From assembly GCA_024196135.1 (NCBI GenBank), contig JAMQCK010000284.1, positions 1 through 31,528 on the forward strand: a DNA stretch of 31,528 bases, given 5' to 3'. Below, piece by piece: positions 14,807 through 22,849 of this stretch. A program made the position numbers and the translations under genes. Each line of letters begins with the position of its first letter. Positions within the stretch are counted from its first letter, which is position 1. A model generated the notes under the pieces. That model saw only the letters and a program-made list of their open reading frames with translations, did no database searches and was not told the origin of the DNA. Source of the stretch: Pleurotus ostreatus/Saccharomyces cerevisiae fusant. Lineage: Eukaryota; Opisthokonta.

Positions 14807-14836
14807 CGACACCAGCAGGATTCGAACCTGCGCCCT
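14807..14836 (-). tRNA. tRNA-Ser 3' half (disrupted gene)
   Basis: The minus strand carries a perfect T-arm, GCAGG-TTCGAAT-CCTGC (14831-14815), containing the B box GGTTCGAATCC. The 3' acceptor strand TGGTGTC (14814-14808) and discriminator G (14807) follow. The ending closely resembles yeast tRNA-Ser(AGA), which also has GCGCAGGTTCGA. No matching 5' half lies next to it. The missing half is about 8 kb away at 22806-22849 on the same strand: GGCACTA there pairs with TGGTGTC at all seven positions, with two G-U pairs. This is one end of a tRNA gene split by an insertion. Confidence 0.7.
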
Positions 14837-14871
14837 TGAGCTATACCGCACGTTTGAGTCCTGCGGAGTGA

Positions 14872-14906
14872 GGAATTGGGCACCGAGCGGAGCGAGGCCC
14901 AATTCC
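14872..14906. repeat. 10-bp inverted repeat near the left end of the element
   Basis: GGAATTGGGC (14872-14881) and GCCCAATTCC (14897-14906) are perfect inverted copies around a 15-nt spacer, about 35 bp inside the left tRNA junction. It could be a recombinase arm-binding site or a hairpin. No matching copy was seen at the right end. Confidence 0.5.
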
Positions 14907-14923
14907 GAACGGAGCGGGCAATC

Positions 14924-15057
14924 TTTCGCGAAGCGATGGGGGCATACTCTCGCGAAGCGATGGAGGCATTCTCTCGCGAAGCGATGGAGGCATTCTCTCG
15001 CGAAGCGATGGGGGCATTCTCTCGCGAAGCGATGGGGGCATTCTCTCGCGAAGCGAT
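14924..15057. repeat. 24-bp tandem repeat array with GCGAAGC mini-hairpins
   Basis: There are five full 24-bp units (14924-15043) and one partial. Decayed relatives continue to about 15145. Each unit holds TCGCGAAGCGA, which folds on itself as TCGC-GAA-GCGA and includes GCGAAGC, known from biophysics as an exceptionally stable DNA mini-hairpin. Variation between units is nearly confined to one A/G position after the hairpin. Because 24 is a multiple of three, all frames stay open through it, which explains long spurious open frames on both strands. Confidence 0.85.
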
Positions 15058-15212
15058 CCCGACCAGGCACTTTTTCGCGAAGCGACCCCACCCCGGCATT
15101 CTTTCGCGCAGGAGACCACTCAATCTCTCGCGGAGCGACCCGCCCGGGCACTCTTCCAAGTTAGGGGTCGGCCCTTTGGACGTGCAGGCAGCGGCTTTCG
15201 TGGGGCCCAACA

Positions 15213-15378
15213 AAAATTCGCGCCGCCGCCCGACCGTCTCGCCGCCATCCTCACCCGACGACGCGCGCCGTCAACCCTCCCGAGCCAACGTCCCACGCAG
15301 AGACACAGGACGGCGCCCTCCACCGTCTCCTCTGCGGCATCGAGCGGCACTCGTCCAAGATCTGGGACTCGAGCGAAC
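15213..15378 (+). pseudogene. decayed partial copy of the 15560-16707 gene
   Basis: This segment repeats, with substitutions and deletions, the sequence at about 15781-15965 inside the next gene. Shared blocks include CGCCGCCGCCCGACCGTCTC, CCCGAGCCAACGT and ATCTGGGACTCGAGC. The copy lacks the start and the 3' part, and about 40 bp in its middle are missing. It is a degenerate tandem duplicate, either left by internal rearrangement or a relic of an earlier element copy. No coding function is expected. Confidence 0.7.
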
Positions 15379-15393
15379 CTGTGTCCTACTCTT

Positions 15394-15482
15394 CGTCCGA
15401 ATCCTGCGCGTCCCGTCCGAATCCTGCGCGCGCGAACCTGCTTTCTTGATACTCTCTCATCACTCCGTCCGAATCCTGCACG
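15394..15482 (+). repeat. three copies of a 17-bp motif upstream of the first element gene
   Basis: CGTCCGAATCCTGC(G/A)CG occurs at 15394-15410, 15414-15430 and 15466-15482; the first two are exactly 20 bp apart. The set lies 78-166 bp upstream of the ATG at 15560. Twelve of 13 bases of GTCCGAATCCTGC match the tRNA T-arm GTTCGAATCCTGC at the left junction, in the opposite orientation. It may be a regulatory or recombinase-binding repeat. Confidence 0.6.
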
Positions 15483-15524
15483 CGCTCAGCCTCCGTCGTC
15501 CCACCTCCTATCCCTCCCGACGGG

Positions 15525-15530
15525 TATAAA
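15525..15530 (+). promoter_or_regulatory. TATA box of the first element gene
   Basis: TATAAA sits only 30 nt upstream of the ATG at 15560. A transcript starting about 30 nt downstream of it would have almost no leader, so translation might instead begin at the next in-frame ATG (15614). Confidence 0.4.
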
Positions 15531-15559
15531 CGGGGGGAGGGCGGGGGGAGGGGACAACG

Positions 15560-16707
15560 ATGGACCTTCCCTACGACCACAAGCGCTTCCTGCACCGGCT
15601 ACGCAAGCTGACCGAGATGGAGCTCCCGCCGCTGGCGTCGCGCCAGCAGGCGGCCCAGTTCCAGCGCGAGTCCAAGGCTCGCATGGCCGCGCTCAAGGAA
15701 TACATCAAGCCGAGCGCCAACATCATCGGTCGGGCCCCGCGCGCGGCCAAGAAGAAGGTTGCGGCGCCAGGTGATCGCGTCGCGCCGCCGCCCGACCGTC
15801 TCGCCGCCATCCTCGCGCGACCCCGCGACGCGCGCTCGGTCGAGGACGTGTGGCGGATCGCCGTCAACCCGCCCGAGCCAACGTCTCGCGCAGAGACAGA
15901 GGACGGCGCCCTTCACCGTCTGCTCTGCGGCATCGAGCAGCACTCGTCCAAGATCTGGGACTCGAGCTCCCCCGCGGACGAGGTCACACAGGCAGTGACC
16001 GCGTACGACGCCGTCGACGCACATGGAGACGATGGCGTGCTGCTCGTGCAGCTCCACAACGTGCGTATCACGCGGCCAAGGCCGCCGCCCCGCGCTCACC
16101 GTCGCCCCAGCGCATCCACACCTCCGAAATCTCTCGCGATCTCGTCGGCCTCCGCCGCCACCTCCGCATCCAGGCAGACACCATCGAGTTTGGCCTCCGC
16201 TGGCTCGCGCTCGGCGGCGAAGGCGGCCGCTCCGTCCAAAAGGAAGAGTTCTTCAAGTCCGTCTGGTTCTCGCAGTACCCGCAAGTCTACGTGACAGCGC
16301 TCGACAAGGCAGGCGTCGAACAGGATCCCGACTTTGTACGATGGAAGCAGAACGTCATGCGCCCCATCGTCACGGGCAGGAACAGACTCGTTCAGGTGTA
16401 CAAGAAGGTGACTTGCGCGCTCCCCTATCTCTCGCTCTCACTCAACATCTCCCAGTTTGGCCTCATCGTCCTTCTCGATCCGTTCTGGACAGTAAAGTCG
16501 CTCCAGCCGAACAGTCGCACCCGCGAGTTCACCGCGATCCTCAATTCTTTCTTGCAACTCCAGGAGCCCGAACGCGACTTTGACCACGCGGTCATCGCCT
16601 TTCTCAAAGGCTTCCAGAGTCGAGCCATCGCCGAGCGGCTGTTTGAGGTGGAAAACGAAGAGGAGGAGAAGGAGATGCCCGCGGACACGTCCACGGACGA
16701 GCAGTAG
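15560..16707 (+). CDS. element-encoded hypothetical protein, 349 residues
   Basis: I do not recognise this protein. Exons 15560-16060, 16111-16407 and 16456-16707 join through introns of 50 and 48 nt. The second intron is in frame and free of stops, so retention would add 16 residues. The N-terminus is helical and basic (HKRFLHRLRKLTEME; PRAAKKKV). A compact helical domain follows, with TSEISRDLVGLRRHLRIQAD, EFFKSVWFSQYPQVYVTAL and FVRWKQNVMRPIVTGRN. The end is acidic (EVENEEEEKEMPAD). It has no membrane segment or catalytic motif that I can name. It lies 121 bp upstream of the recombinase-like gene on the same strand, and part of it is duplicated just upstream. A role in element mobility is only a guess from position. 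Confidence 0.6.
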
Positions 16708-16739
16708 ACTTTTGACATTAATTGTAATCAATTTTGACA

Positions 16740-16758
16740 TGTGCTTTCCACACGCCAA
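16740..16758 (+). promoter_or_regulatory. 19-bp element motif, copy 1 (recombinase promoter)
   Basis: TGTGCTTTCCACACGCCAA ends 70 nt upstream of the recombinase-like ATG. An exact copy in reverse orientation lies at 22748-22766, upstream of the minus-strand element gene, so both copies point toward their gene. This suggests shared transcriptional control or a recombinase-binding site. Confidence 0.6.
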
Positions 16759-16828
16759 CACCGCTCGCGCGCGAATCCTTGCCCGTCGTCGCCCATAAAG
16801 ACCCGTCCAGCATGTCCCCCACTCGTCC

Positions 16829-19800
16829 ATGTCGTCAAACCCCCTCCACCCGGGTGTCCATCCCACCCGTCAGTTTCGTGCGCAGCTCGCGGCAGACAAC
16901 CCGACGCCAGGCGCGCTCGCTCGCGACGAACGTCGGTCTACCACACTCCTGCACACCCCGTTCCAAGCCCAGCCGTACATGTCCACCCTCGAGTCCAACA
17001 TCGCCGCCGGCCGCCGCCAGGTGGAAGAGGACCCCGTCGACCATGACCCTACGGCGCCCATCATGCCCGCTCTCCCCGCCTGCCTCCAGCCACTCGCGAA
17101 GCGACCGCTGAACCCGGATGCGGCCGCCATCCCGAAGCCTAGCGCGACCTCGGGGCCGTACGTGCCCCGGTCCTTGGACGAGATTCCGCTCCCGGCGCGC
17201 GTCATCGTCGACCCCCGGGACCAGCACGTCGTCGACCTCCAGATCGCCAAGCTCACCAAGGCGTTCAGGGAGTCTGGCAGGGAGATTGACCAGTACTCGG
17301 CCGAGATCCAGGCATGGGCGGAACAGGTGGAATCGTCCGAGGCCGACAAGACGCGCAACGCCCGCGCGCGGATGCTCGGTCGCTGGATGTCCTGGTACCG
17401 ACTCATGGCTCCCGACTGGCCAGAGGACGCCGCCTGGAACGGGGACGCTATCCTCAAGTTTGGCCCCTCCTTTCTACGCTTTCTCGTGCGTATTTTCCGC
17501 CCCTTCCAACCCCCCACACGCTTACCGCCTTCGCCAGCTCGACCACGTCAAGCGCCCGGACGGGCAGCCCCTCAAGTCGCGCACGCTCGCCTGCTGGTTC
17601 GGGCTCTTTGTGCAGTGCATCATCCGGTACGCTGTCGACTCCAAGTCGGGCAAGAAGTGCGGCACCGTCATCCTCGGCCAGCACGATCTCTTCACCGTCG
17701 TCAGGGACCAGGTCTTTGCGCGTGAGCCTGCTCTGCAACCCTCCTCCGCTCCTCTGACGTTCACGCAGTGACCAGGGTGTACGGCCTCGACCGCCGGTAC
17801 AGCAACCGAATCTACTACGGCCCCGGCGAGCTCATGGTTCTCCTCGAGGACCTGCTCTCGGAACCGTACAAGGACTGGCAGGTCGTCCTCCAGCACTGCC
17901 AGCAGCTCATCCTCCCCTTCTACTTTGGCCTCCGCGCATCCACCCTCGGCCCCGTCAGCAAGAAGCACGAGGAGAATGGGGCAAAGTTGACGTTCAGGGA
18001 CGTCACCGTGCGCAAGCTGGACGAGTATCGATGGCGGGTCGAGCTCCGCTTCCACAGCTTCAAGGTAGCCCACCGTGCCCACCTCTCTCATCGCATACTC
18101 ACGCACTCTTGCAGGGCTACTTCACACGTCCATACGACAAGGAGCAGGCGTACAACCTGGACTCGGTCGAGGCCATGGAGTACGTCCTCCTCGACGGACC
18201 CACGTACTTTCTCCCGGATTGGTACGCGCGTGGCGTCTTTTGTCGCAAGAAGTACTCGGTCAGCTCCCCTCTCTCTCCCCTTGCGCCCTTCCGCTGACCT
18301 CTCCGCCCAGACTTTTCTCATCTTTCTCACGCACAGCGACCCTGTGCGCGAGATCCTCCCCGAAGCCTTGGACTGGTACCTGTCCGTACACACGCCCTCT
18401 CTCCGCCGTCCGCACTCGCTCATCACGCCCTCCACAGTTTCCGCGCCGTCAAGCAGGGAGGCGCGGGCTTTGTGCACCCTCCCAAGGCAGCCAACTCTCG
18501 CGCCTTCTCGAACGTCACCGCCACCCGCACCAAGATCTCCGGCATCCCCTCCACTGGCGTCGGCGGCTGGCGACGCGGCGCGGGTGAACAGGTACGCGCT
18601 TGCGGTCCCTCTGTCGCCCATCTCGCTCATACCGGCTCCAAGGTAGCGATGACCTACGGACTCGAGATGGGTCGGGCGCTGCTCGCACAGGCGCCGGACA
18701 GAGCGTACAAGGTCCTGCTCGAGCATTACAACCACGGCAACACCAACCACTCGTTCGTCGCCATGCGCTTGTGCACGATAGACCCCACCGTCAGCCCCGA
18801 GATGGCGCGCCGGTTTCGTGAGCAGCAGGAACTCACGGCTGTCGTCCTGGACGCCGTCGTCCGCCGCACCCGCGCCCAGGTCGCCACGGCAGACGGCGTG
18901 TCGCAGACCGCGAATATCGCCCGCCTGGAGGCGGAGTCTACAGCAGCGCTGAGAGCCGAGGCCAAACGCCTTGCGGCAGAGGTACGTCCGTCAACGGATC
19001 CCGCCCAATGTCCCTCTCACCCCACTCGACAGGAACCGTTGAGCATCGAGTGCGAGGCCGATGTCGAACGCCTGTTCGCCGAGTTCAAGACACTTTTCAA
19101 CAACCTCACCCTCTGCGACCGTCCGTCCTCGGTGAGCGCGGCCATCGAGCGCGCAAACGATGCCACCGACGAGACGCTCACCTACAAGACGCTGCCCACG
19201 CGCGACCTCGCCCAGACTCGACTGCGTGCCATAGAGGTGCGGTCCCTCGCACACACCGCCCGCTTCCCAGTTCGCTCACACATATTGTCCAGCTCCAGCA
19301 CGAAGTCGGTGTCGCCAGGGAGAGGGCGACTCTGCTGCGCACCAAACGCGTCCGTGCACATTTTGACCGCCTCTGCCGCGAGGAGCTCCGTGGCAGACGC
19401 GATGCGCCACCGGTCGGCACCCTCCAGGAGCGCGCGGATGCGACGAAGCGCCTCAAGGGCATCTCGTACACCCAACGCGTTCTCGTTGAGGAAGGCCAGC
19501 GCATGTTCGGCGCGGACGGACTCGCGTCCACTTCCTGCGAGCCCGTCGCGTCCACATCCGCCCTCACCGCCACTCCCGCGCTATCCAAGACCATACCCCT
19601 CGTGCCAGACAACGACGACGGACTGCTCGCGCTCGACGACGAGCCCGATGCTCGTGTACTAAACCAGGCCATCGACTCGTCCGTCATCTACCAGCTCAAG
19701 AAACACGCGGGCACTACCAATCTCGACGGGGACGAGTACGTCGCGGACGAGTTCCTGCCCCCGACAGACGTCCCGCTTGACGGTGTGTCGGAGTCGAATC

Positions 19801-20887
19801 GCGCCATCATGCCCTCGCTCGGGCCCACCCTGCGCATCCTCACCCGTCGCCTATACCTCCCGTTGGAGAACAGCATACACAAGGCGGTGGAGGCCATCGT
19901 GGACGGCGTGCTCAAGTATCACTGCCAGCTGTGCTTGCTGGTGGACGATCACCTCGCAAAGCAGCGCTTTACTGTCCAGAGGGGCGACAAGCGCGTGTTT
20001 ACGACCATCGGCGAGTACAACAAGCACCTGTCAGTTTCTCTCTCGTGCCAGCCATCACCGTTGCTCAATTGCTCTGCAGTCTCCTCCAGCACTCGTATTG
20101 GCGGCAGCTGATCATGAAGATCTTCCGTGACGATATCAAGGGTCTCAAGTGTCCTGCCTGCGACTATCAGTACGCATCCGTCTTTCTGTCGTTCGTCACA
20201 CCTGCCTGACCCGTTCGCTCAGCGCGCCCGACTACGACACTCTCACCGACGACCACATGCTCGTGGACTGCGTCGACTCTCTCACTTTCAAGGAGATCCA
20301 GGACACGCACAGGCAAGCCTGGATCAAGGCCAGCGGCAAGAGACCCGCACGCGCGAAGGTGCCCGCTGAGGAGCTCGCCAACGCGCCCGACTCCGGATCA
20401 ACCACCGCACGCAAGAGGGCAGCGTCCCCGAAGGAGAAGGCATCGGGCACTGCACGCGACTTGGTCGCGCAAGGGCTTGAGATCTTGCAAGAGGTAAGCT
20501 CGTCTATTGCATCTCTGTATGCCGTTCTGAACATGCGCCTAGAACGCGTCAGAGAGTCCAGCCGTCGCCGATGTCATCGGCAGCGTGCAGCGACTGCTTG
20601 ATCGGCTGGACGACGAGACTGAGGAGGACTTGCCGGCGGTGGATTTCTGGCCGTCGTACGAGGACTTGAGCACCTGGACTCTGGCCGAGGCGGAGATCGC
20701 ACTCGAGGACGTACGTGTACCACGATTTGTGTACGACTCGGTACTCATGCCCTTTCAGCTTCAGCAGTCGCAGCCCGACCACGAAGTCACCCTCGCCATG
20801 GAGCGCGCGGTCCAGCACTTGAGCCAGTCGCATCACACACTTACCCTCGAAGAGTATTATGACGCATACTTGGACCTCTGTTTGTAA
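16829..20887 (+). CDS. DUF3435/Crypton-like tyrosine recombinase with zinc-binding C-terminus
   Basis: Thirteen exons fit in phase: 16829-17485, 17538-17721, 17769-18064, 18115-18258, 18311-18381, 18438-18591, 18643-18981, 19033-19236, 19293-20029, 20080-20169, 20223-20493, 20543-20710 and 20759-20887. They give 1147 residues. Residues about 295-342 read RIYYGPGELMVLLEDLL..FYFGLRASTLGP, like the DUF3435 pattern (F/Y)FG..E..LL..LRPGSLG, so R336 may be the first catalytic Arg. Residues 495-533 read WRRGAGEQ..GRALLAQAPDRAYKVLLEHYNH, like LRRGAGNA..RNQVMGHS..F..YY in Starship captains. This suggests R496/R497 and nucleophile Y531, with Gln518 where the family usually has His. The C-terminus holds C894-x2-C897-x30-H928-x4-H933 and C953-x2-C956-x13-H970-x4-C975. 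It is the likely integrase of the element. Activity is inferred. Confidence 0.7.
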
Positions 20888-21032
20888 TTGTGATACACGT
20901 GTATCCTTTAGTATATGCAATGACAACTAGTAAAGACAGGAATTATAATGTGTGACGACAGTTGTGAGCGATGCAGGTAAAGAAGGTAGGTAGTCGTGTG
21001 CAAATCCAAAGTTCATCGCAGAGCGCAGGTGC

Positions 21033-22592
21033 TCAAGTCTCATAGGCGTTGTGCGGGCCACCGTAGACCATCTGAACGTCTGCTGACGGCTATCAGGCAC
21101 GTAACAGGACCAGACAATGGTCGCTCACCTCCCATGCTGCTCATGCCAGCCGCCATGTTGCTGCCTCCCATGCTGCTCATGCCGGCCACCATATTGCTGC
21201 CACCGGCTACGCCGTACAGTCCTCCAGCACCACTCGGCCCGGGCCCCATACCGCTGCCCCCGGCCACGCCGAGCTCCCCTCCCATGCCCCCCATCCCAGG
21301 TGCGGTAGCGAGACCGTTGAAGCCAGTGCTGTATGTCTGCGGGTACGTGACAGTGTTGTTCATGCCGGTCCAGGCGCTATCGTCAAAACTGAACGCTGAA
21401 CCGTTATGAGCACGCAGCGAGAGGTAAGAAAAGGGAATATATGCGTACTGGTGAGAGACTTGCGGTAACTCTCGACCATCGCAGTCAGTTTGACGATCGC
21501 AGTGTTCGCGTTCGCCAGCGCCCTGCGTCCCTCCCTGCGCTCCTCTTCCAGAGCTTCGGCACGGTGCACAGCATACGACAGCGCGATGGTCTTGGTCGCG
21601 ATCTCCGACGTGTCGCCTCGCTGGCGGGTCGCTCTCGCCTTCTTCGCCCGTGGCGCCGCAGGAGCGGCCGTACGCACGGTAGACGCTGCCGGAGCTTTCC
21701 CCTTGCCCTTCTCTGCTGCGGGTGCAGGCGCCTTCTTCTGACCCTGCTGCTGGGTAAGCACAGGCGCATCGGTCTTGCGCGCCCGGCCTCTTGCTTTGAC
21801 GGTGCTGGCAACTGGAGATGACGCAGGCGTGGGAGCGTAGTCGATAGATGCAGAGTCGACAGATTGAGAGGGAGCGGAGGCCGGAGGGGGATCGCGAGCG
21901 GTAGCGAGAGTCGATGTGCCGTCGTCCATAACAGTGTCAACGATGATCGGCTCATCATCAGAGTCCTCAGAGTCCGAAAGCGGAGGGAGGGAAGTACGAG
22001 CGGACTTGCGAAGGAGGGCGGTCTGGGATCGAGTGATAGGGGGTGTGGCGGGCGCACGAGCAGCCGCAGCGTTCGAGGCGAGTGCAGTCGGGTCTTCCAT
22101 CGAATCGGGGGCAGGCGAGGAAGAGGCGTAAGAAGCGAGAGCAGCGAGTTCATGTGTCGGTTCGGTGATGGCGAGTTCGGGCATCGTGTCGGGTGCAGGG
22201 CTTTCGGGCATCTTGTCGGGTGCAGGGCTTGCGTCCTTCATTTCTGGTGCAGGTGAGGAGGAAACGTAAATGGCTTCAGTCTGAGACGAGCGGGTCGTGG
22301 CGGATTCGGAGGAATAAGCGGCGGGGGAATAAGCAGCGGGGGCCTTGGTGGTGAAAGGCGTGATCGGAACTCGGATGACGGGTCTTGGAGTGGCAAATGT
22401 GGTTGATGTCGTGGACTGGGAGACTATGCCAGTGCTCGCCGGACGCATATATGCGCCCGGTTCGACAGCGCTTGAACGGACGATCGGCGGTGCAGGATCT
22501 ACGCGTGCTGGGGGGTTGTTGCCTGGCTGAAAGGGCACGCTGATGCGCATACGAGGCGAGGCAGGCTTGTACAAGAGTTTACGTTGAGACAT
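21033..22592 (-). CDS. element-encoded disordered protein with coiled coil, 485 residues
   Basis: Start is the first true ATG, 22592-22590 (MSQRKLLYKPASPRMRISVP). Exons 22592-21449, 21395-21129 and 21079-21033 join through 53- and 49-nt introns. The second intron replaces a Gly/Met repeat run-on with the end DVQMVYGGPHNAYET. Residues 1-300 are rich in Pro, Ala, Ser and Thr, with repeated SPAPDxM phrases and an acidic patch (LSDSEDSDDEPIIVD). A basic stretch (KARGRARKTD..KKARATRQRG) suggests nuclear location or DNA binding. A helix of about 45 residues (AVHRAEALEEERREGRRALA) looks like a coiled coil, and the tail is Gly/Met-rich. No family is recognised. It converges on the recombinase-like gene and shares its 19-bp promoter motif, so it is probably expressed with it. 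Confidence 0.6.
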
Positions 22593-22746
22593 GGTGATGG
22601 TCAGAATCAAGAATGGTTGGGCGCAAGCGGGGCTGGCGTCCGCGCTTTTGGTGGCTATTGTTGTTGCCAAATAAGGCCAAGCACCCTCAACCCTTGTACT
22701 TTTCCATCAGGCTAGCAACGACTTGGTGATGCCCTCTTCACACACA

Positions 22747-22773
22747 TTTGGCGTGTGGAAAGCACACACCAAA
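22747..22773. repeat. imperfect hairpin at the right end of the element
   Basis: TTTGGCGTGTG (22747-22757) and CACACACCAAA (22763-22773) form 11-bp arms with one mismatch around a 5-nt loop. The left arm and loop are part of the 19-bp motif copy. It sits about 30 bp from the right tRNA junction, so it may serve as a recombinase-binding or promoter site. Confidence 0.5.
22748..22766 (-). promoter_or_regulatory. 19-bp element motif, copy 2
   Basis: On the minus strand this is TGTGCTTTCCACACGCCAA, identical over 19 bp to 16740-16758. It ends 155 nt upstream of the ATG at 22592 and is also close to the right junction of the element. Confidence 0.6.
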
Positions 22774-22805
22774 GTTGGCGTCGTGGCGAATAGGAGATTA
22801 GTCTG

Positions 22806-22849
22806 AAGAGATTTCTAATCTCTCGCGTTAACCACTCCGCCATAGTGCC
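22806..22849 (-). tRNA. tRNA-Ser(AGA) 5' half (disrupted gene)
   Basis: Reading down from 22849 the minus strand gives the acceptor strand GGCACTA, TG, the D-arm GCG-GAGTGGTTAA-CGC (stem pairs fully), G, and the anticodon arm AGAGA-TTAGAAA-TCTCT with anticodon AGA. This is the layout of eukaryotic tRNA-Ser(AGA), and the D-loop contains the A box. After the anticodon stem the sequence leaves tRNA: no variable arm, T-arm or acceptor 3' strand follows. The complementary 3' half is at 14807-14836. Confidence 0.75.

Follow-up and report, generated by a model that had tools for sequence, protein, structure and literature searches.

The DNA analysed in this work, hereafter the window, is a stretch of 31,528 nucleotides (nt) from an assembly deposited as a Pleurotus ostreatus/Saccharomyces cerevisiae fusant (GCA_024196135.1, contig JAMQCK010000284.1; C485, 1-31528 on the plus strand). 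It contains a tRNA-Ser(AGA) gene whose two halves are separated by an inserted element of 7,969 bp (14837..22805), which carries a gene for a large protein that is putatively related to tyrosine recombinases (YRs). The 5' half, with acceptor, D arm and anticodon arm, occupies 44 nt at 22806..22849 on the minus strand, and the 3' half, with the end of the variable arm (AGGGC), the T arm, the acceptor and the discriminator G followed by a T-run, occupies 30 nt at 14807..14836 on the same strand, in the correct order for one gene. The whole assembly (40.05 Mb in 1,277 contigs) was searched with both ends of this tRNA, allowing up to three mismatches; reversed patterns, used as a control, gave zero matches. 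The first 25 nt of the 5' half matched 12 places, all of them exactly, and a complete tRNA-Ser gene continues from 11 of these, with the window copy as the sole exception. The last 27 nt of the 3' half matched 13 places (11 exactly, two with one mismatch), of which 12, including that on contig C947, sit in complete genes, leaving the window copy as the only orphan. Six intact tRNA-Ser(AGA) genes (L001, L002, L007, L010, L011 and L012) are identical to each other over 82 nt, and the window retains nt 1-44 and the last 30 nt in exact identity to them; the joined halves thus make 74 nt, eight nt of the variable arm, CCTCTCTG, being gone. ARAGORN calls tRNA-Ser(AGA) from the joined halves, and by eye the acceptor stem can be paired throughout, with two G-U among its seven pairs. 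The uncut window yielded no tRNA with ARAGORN, nor with Rfam at E-values up to 1. These results agree with the preliminary description, made from the sequence alone, which had proposed one tRNA-Ser(AGA) gene with halves in this position, order and strand and with this acceptor stem, and had suggested examining the joined sequence. No empty allele of the locus was found in the same assembly, and the outer flanks of the insertion, the tRNA half itself excepted, are each single-copy there.

The insert carries three genes. A helper gene with two short introns (by eye) and no Pfam domain (15560..16707, plus strand) is followed by the YR-like gene, also on the plus strand (16829..20887), which has 12 exons and 1,163 codons with no internal stops; its product of 1163 amino acids has the residues R336, K379, R496/R497 and Y531, and pairs of CxxC near the C terminus. 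The third gene, gene 1, lies on the minus strand at about 21033..22592 and is predicted to encode a low-complexity protein, by a gene model that is incomplete at the 3' end.

Relatives of this element were sought in the same genome with the recombinase regions of the window and contig C549 and with the helper of contig C602; the counts given are lower bounds. At least four sets of YR-like and helper genes were found: in the window, on C549, on C602, and on C561 (YR-like gene) together with C1193 (start of the helper gene). All four lie in tRNA genes with a long variable arm (class II), three in tRNA-Leu and one in tRNA-Ser. On C549 an orphan tRNA-Leu 3' half comes first, and after it the helper, the YR-like gene, an open frame on the opposite strand and a complete tRNA-Leu; C602 has the same order, with the tRNA pieces about 8.9 kb apart compared with about 8.1 kb in C549. 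The helper and YR-like genes of the window follow one another as in these two copies, and helper homologues occupy the same place in C549, C602 and, for the start of the gene, C1193. Both C549 and C602 have an open frame at the place and on the strand of gene 1, with no significant similarity to it. The C602 element end is 93% identical to that of C1193 (206 nt), and over 185 nt of the query it has 75% identity with the sequence at the orphan end of the window.

A census covered the 3' halves of tRNA-Leu and tRNA-Ser genes. For tRNA-Leu, all 20 matches to the 5' part are accompanied by a 3' half, and the 25 matches to the 3' part comprise these 20, two in complete tRNAs with a more divergent 5' part (C130 and C779) and three orphans (C549, C602 and C1193). 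Together with the Ser orphan of the window, four of four orphans adjoin an element end, which speaks against the alternative, raised in the preliminary description, that the two halves are independent tRNA-derived fragments.

The junctions were read by eye in the direction of the tRNA. On the orphan side they are ACA-GGGGCG-TGGG in C602 and C1193, ACA-GGAGCG-TGGG in C549 and TCA-AGGGCG-CAGG in the window, while on the side of the complete tRNA they are TCCTCC-GGGGCG-CGAG in C602 and C549 and TCCTTC-GGGGCG-TGAG in C561. The 6-nt core, GGRGCG in the Leu cases, spans the end of the variable arm (five bases) and the first base of the T stem; by comparison of junctions by eye, its position in the window is the AGGGCG at 14831..14836 (minus strand), where the element meets the tRNA 3' half. 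The two core copies are identical in C602 and differ at one base in C549 (GGGGCG and GGAGCG). Beyond the core the two ends diverge immediately in C602 and C549, and those of C561/C1193 share a further two bases first. In each Leu case one end bears a complete tRNA whose 3' part differs from the orphan 3' half at the other end, and the T stems of the complete tRNAs are paired (GCGAG/CTCGC, or GTGAG/CTCAC in C561).

An empty site is available on contig C429, which holds a single, intact tRNA-Leu(TAG) gene. The alignment of its 3' flank to C1193 has 91.6% identity over 3,115 bp and stops at the core, and its 5' flank with the tRNA aligns with C561 at 89.1% over 1,349 bp. Since both flanks align and the C429 tRNA is intact, C429 and C561/C1193 are, as judged from these alignments, empty and occupied forms of one site, either alleles or duplicated segments. 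The same alignments and the complementary element parts suggest that C561 and C1193 hold one insertion. The C1193 orphan matches the 3' half of C429 at 27 of 27 nt, and the tRNA at the C561 end at only 23 of 27; therefore the native half has been displaced and another stands in its place. Moreover, the changes in the C561 tRNA fall on both sides of the T stem and keep its pairing. Rfam scoring, which covered C429, C561, C602 and the orphan loci, gave 51.1 bits for the empty site, 47.2 for C561 and 46.6 for C602; at E-values up to 0.1 nothing matched the orphan loci, L072 and L077. On C561 the element is found in two places (C561:739 and C561:20414), with the tRNA-side piece opposite in orientation to the rest and about 19 kb away from it, owing either to an inversion that broke the element or to an assembly fault. 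In addition, a decayed second piece of tRNA-Leu(TAG), comprising the end of the D arm, the anticodon region and the intron, is seen by eye inside this element (L094, C561:1-3500), some 130-200 nt beyond the tRNA-Leu(TAG) when read along the tRNA; it may be the remnant of an integration or capture that took place earlier.

According to these data, it is probable that the window contains a member of a small family of fungal mobile elements (8-9 kb) that integrate site-specifically into tRNA genes with long variable arms, regenerate their target, and use a recombinase of the YR type. That the family integrates site-specifically and regenerates the target follows from the Leu junctions, where a complete tRNA and an orphan half share a common core, and from the intact tRNA in the empty site. 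An enzyme encoded by the element, most likely of the tyrosine recombinase type, would insert the element, in circular form, into the tRNA gene, with an exchange inside the 6-bp core (GGGGCG or GGAGCG, and AGGGCG in the Ser case) at the border between variable arm and T stem. Because the element would carry its own tRNA 3' half directly after its core, the 5' part of the host gene would gain a new 3' part, giving a complete tRNA gene with its base pairing intact, and the original 3' half, together with its terminator, would end up as an orphan at the far end. The YR-like protein may catalyse this reaction through a circular intermediate, with the helper and gene 1 possibly taking part. The proposal of the preliminary description that an element entered the variable-arm region of a tRNA-Ser gene is thus well supported by four gene sets at the same junction and one empty site. 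What it had not foreseen is that the relatives regenerate the tRNA with a 3' half of their own.

Other explanations were considered. The element could be a cut-and-paste transposon of the DDE type, somewhat like Dada, which belongs to that type, making a 6-bp target duplication (GGGGCG) and having a terminus that encodes a tRNA 3' half by chance. The identical six nt on both sides in C602 are in line with this, as is the fact that Dada transposons insert inside tRNA genes with target duplications of 6-7 bp (PMC8869645). However, unlike Dada, the window insert shows no DDE transposase in a six-frame Pfam search, which gave no match of any kind at E-values up to 0.1; no inverted pair was found at the window junctions in a repeat search (minimum 14 nt); the differing cores of C549 would be natural for recombination between two cores and not for a fresh duplication; and the large gene keeps the R-K-R-Y residues, so that we regard a DDE transposon as unlikely. 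Ordinary homologous recombination between the tRNA 3' half of the element and host tRNA genes, with another role for the large protein, would have a shared stretch of about 27 nt to work on (23 of 27 identical in both pairs compared). Yet the exchange always falls at the core (six nt in C602 and C549, the core plus two bases in C561/C1193) and is not scattered over the T arm and acceptor, and the copies differ again from the first (C549 and C602) or third (C561) base past the core, which leaves this explanation just as improbable as a DDE transposon.

It would be slightly more surprising still if the window halves were remnants of different tRNA genes, joined by a rearrangement or misassembly with no relation to the element. 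A reconstituted 3' part is indeed missing in the window, and C561, where part of another copy lies, does have an inversion or assembly fault. On the other hand, the order, strand and orphan junction of the window are those of the other insertions, its orphan end has the 75% identity to the C602 end given above, and the outer flanks are single-copy. Finally, the split gene might work as a trans-spliced or permuted tRNA, the A box being in the 5' half and the B box and T-run in the 3' half; with six intact copies of the same gene, such a function is not required, and we give this idea almost no credence.

Several observations weigh against site-specific integration by a YR, and they concern the window's 5' junction, the tRNA genes used for comparison and the class of the large protein. 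At the 5' junction of the window there is no trace of a reconstituted 3' part, local alignment scores being within the values of shuffled sequences. The sequence passes straight into other DNA after nt 44 of the tRNA, and this end has no core repeat. The orphan end conforms to the other copies, but by eye it carries about 21 nt ahead of the core that C602 lacks. The tRNA-Ser of the window may have been left broken by a later deletion at 22805, or by a faulty integration that removed eight nt. As to the tRNA genes, a tRNA-Leu on C835 (C835:272990-272856, L062) has the unusual 3' part and T arm of C549 and C602, and the YR and helper searches found no element beside it; it may be a native variant, a possible source of the 3' half of the elements, or the scar of a lost element. 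Which halves are native and which element-borne in C549 and C602, where there are no empty sites, is set by analogy with C561/C1193. ARAGORN names the tRNAs of C602, C561 and C429 as Leu and misreads other intron-bearing tRNAs, giving Thr(CGT) for C549, Glu(CTC) for C835 and Arg(CCT) for the uninterrupted gene of C702, so the label Leu(CAG) of these three was assigned by eye. It also reported a tRNA-Cys with a 1,088-nt intron and the C549 orphan as its 3' end, which we take as spurious.

The class of the large protein is the weakest link of the case. Tyrosine recombinases have an ordered set of catalytic residues, R, K, (H/Y/W)xxR, H and Y. Among the four aligned proteins (window, its Schizophyllum commune H4-8 homologue, C549 and C602), R336, K379, R496/R497 and Y531 are invariant; however, the His-His before the Tyr is present in C549 and C602 and absent from the window and H4-8 proteins. 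The large proteins of the window, C549 and C602 have no Pfam match at E-values up to 1, the sole PHROG match is to a PHROG of unknown function (E 1.3), and the top sequence matches in the PDB are zinc fingers, at E 0.04 and above, with no recombinase. An hhalign comparison with seven Escherichia coli YRs (FimB, FimE, XerC, XerD, IntA, IntS and IntR) was not significant: its best alignment paired the first Arg motif with that of the bacterial YRs and scored 19.4, and four of 60 column-shuffled controls scored higher. An AlphaFold2 model built from the H4-8 homologue and one relative was unusable (predicted local distance difference test, pLDDT, of 31.9), and no fold search was made for this reason. 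Thus, from the conserved residues and the junction pattern we infer a tyrosine recombinase, and it stays an inference because neither profile nor structure tests gave confirmation. The same holds for the preliminary description, whose element with its own tyrosine recombinase is favoured by residues and junctions and lacks a significant profile or structure match.

The window protein is 79% identical over its length to the H4-8 protein SCHCODRAFT_02674955. The first protein search (7,992 candidates scored) gave two matches, both from Schizophyllum commune; going by this one mobile gene, the host is probably Schizophyllum or closely related to it. Wider searches, which scored 7,993 candidates with the four-row alignment and 5,013 with the recombinase region of C549, brought no relatives at E-values up to 0.001. 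In the searches made, no recognisable relatives outside Schizophyllum were found. For C602 against C561, the ratio of nonsynonymous to synonymous substitution rates was calculated separately for the recombinase region (507 codons), where it is 0.21, and for the remainder (500 codons), where it is 0.48 and the gene model is less reliable; these values fit a protein that has stayed functional in the different copies. A weak second match to part of the YR-like protein (E 0.008 and 0.004) was observed between the helper and YR-like genes of C561 and C602 (L050 6211-6059 and L051 5364-5215), perhaps a duplicated fragment.

Transfer RNA genes are classical attachment sites of bacterial and archaeal elements, and a displaced native 3' part is known in prokaryotic tRNA-targeting elements. 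As in prophages, SSV-type viruses and pT26-2-like plasmids, the fungal insertions lie within a tRNA gene whose sequence is reconstituted, and the complete tRNA, the orphan 3' part and the common core of the phage and archaeal pattern are all present in C549, C602 and C561/C1193, but not at the 5' end of the window. For bacterial integrases an intact tRNA gene is described as reconstituted, and when archaeal integrases change target, the new tRNA is reported to be of the same class as the old one, with or without a supplementary loop, Ser and Leu tRNAs being the targets given for one archaeal group (PMC8371274). The limitation of the fungal family to Leu and Ser genes obeys this supplementary-loop limit and so repeats a rule reported for archaeal integrases (PMC8371274). 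In contrast to the prokaryotic elements, the family resides in a fungal genome, its large gene bears introns and has about 1,160 codons, and its core lies where the variable arm meets the T stem; searches with Pfam, PHROGs and hhalign gave no significant match of the large protein to prokaryotic integrases. It seems rather likely that a eukaryotic YR family has evolved independently, or inherited, the lifestyle of these phage and archaeal elements, with class II tRNA genes as targets, which are rebuilt by means of a 3' half that the element supplies and that fits the target isoacceptor.

Among eukaryotic elements, Cryptons are DNA transposons with a YR, terminal direct repeats of 4-6 bp and a proposed circular intermediate, and the main text of the paper describing them never uses the word tRNA (PMC3212892). 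The present family resembles them in its putative YR-type gene, in the short end repeats (the 6-nt core, on both sides in C602 and nearly identical in C549) and in that no terminal inverted repeats were seen in the window, where they were searched. It differs from them in having no GCR1_C (CryptonF) or other Pfam domain, three genes, and tRNA targets that are regenerated. Starships are likewise fungal elements with a large YR-like gene, but the element described here has 8 kb and is not giant, and the DUF3435 captain gave no match at E-values up to 1. Starships have been described from Pezizomycotina (PMC12134995). For the polinton-like viruses of cryptophytes, some of which have YRs, no insertion lay within 1 kb of a tRNA gene (PMC12220804); endogenous viruses of crustaceans have YRs associated with telomeres and ribosomal DNA (PMC10871703); and retroelements of dictyostelids and yeast target the neighbourhoods of tRNA genes (PMC5006619). 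Among the titles and abstract openings listed by the literature searches, a scope that leaves preprints and most subscription papers outside, no eukaryotic counterpart is described.

Thus, the broken tRNA gene of the window does not stand alone; its insert belongs to a family of mushroom elements whose attachment sites resemble those of prokaryotic elements. To our knowledge, eukaryotic elements directed at tRNA genes either go in beside these genes or disrupt them. If a tRNA-restoring family does exist in fungi, the same solution would work with RNA polymerase III promoters, tRNA introns and chromatin. Restoration of the tRNA would account for the survival of such elements in a genome densely packed with genes, and their targets would offer a natural, low-damage, site-specific integration site for the engineering of fungal genomes.

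Further features were noted in the insert. An inverted repeat, GGAATTGGGC...GCCCAATTCC, is seen by eye at 14862..14896, with a similar form in C602, and is a candidate binding site for the recombinase. It is followed at 14893..15081 by a run of 24-nt direct repeats with CGCTTCGCGA, found in the repeat search, to which repeats at the C602 and C1193 ends are related by eye. The 20 nt after an intact tRNA-Ser(CGA) gene (L008, C602:143132), GGTATAGCTTGCTCAAGGGC, are similar to GGTATAGCTCAAGGGC, a stretch made up of the final bases of the window element and the beginning of its core. Just upstream of the full helper, at 15218..15374 on the plus strand, lies a partial helper duplicate in two pieces, 92% and 94% identical to the helper, which was possibly left by an earlier element or by a local duplication. 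A 30-nt motif upstream of the YR-like gene (16729..16758, plus strand) shares 26 of 30 nt with an inverted copy upstream of gene 1 (22748..22777, minus strand), and the pair is possibly a shared promoter element. It was rejected as a pair of terminal inverted repeats, both copies being internal and each upstream of a gene start; the repeat search places the I2 pair inside the element. Elsewhere in the assembly, three pairs of contigs (C28/C59, C741/C995 and C551/C1178) carry tRNA genes with flanks that are similar by eye, as if two haplotypes had been assembled in places.

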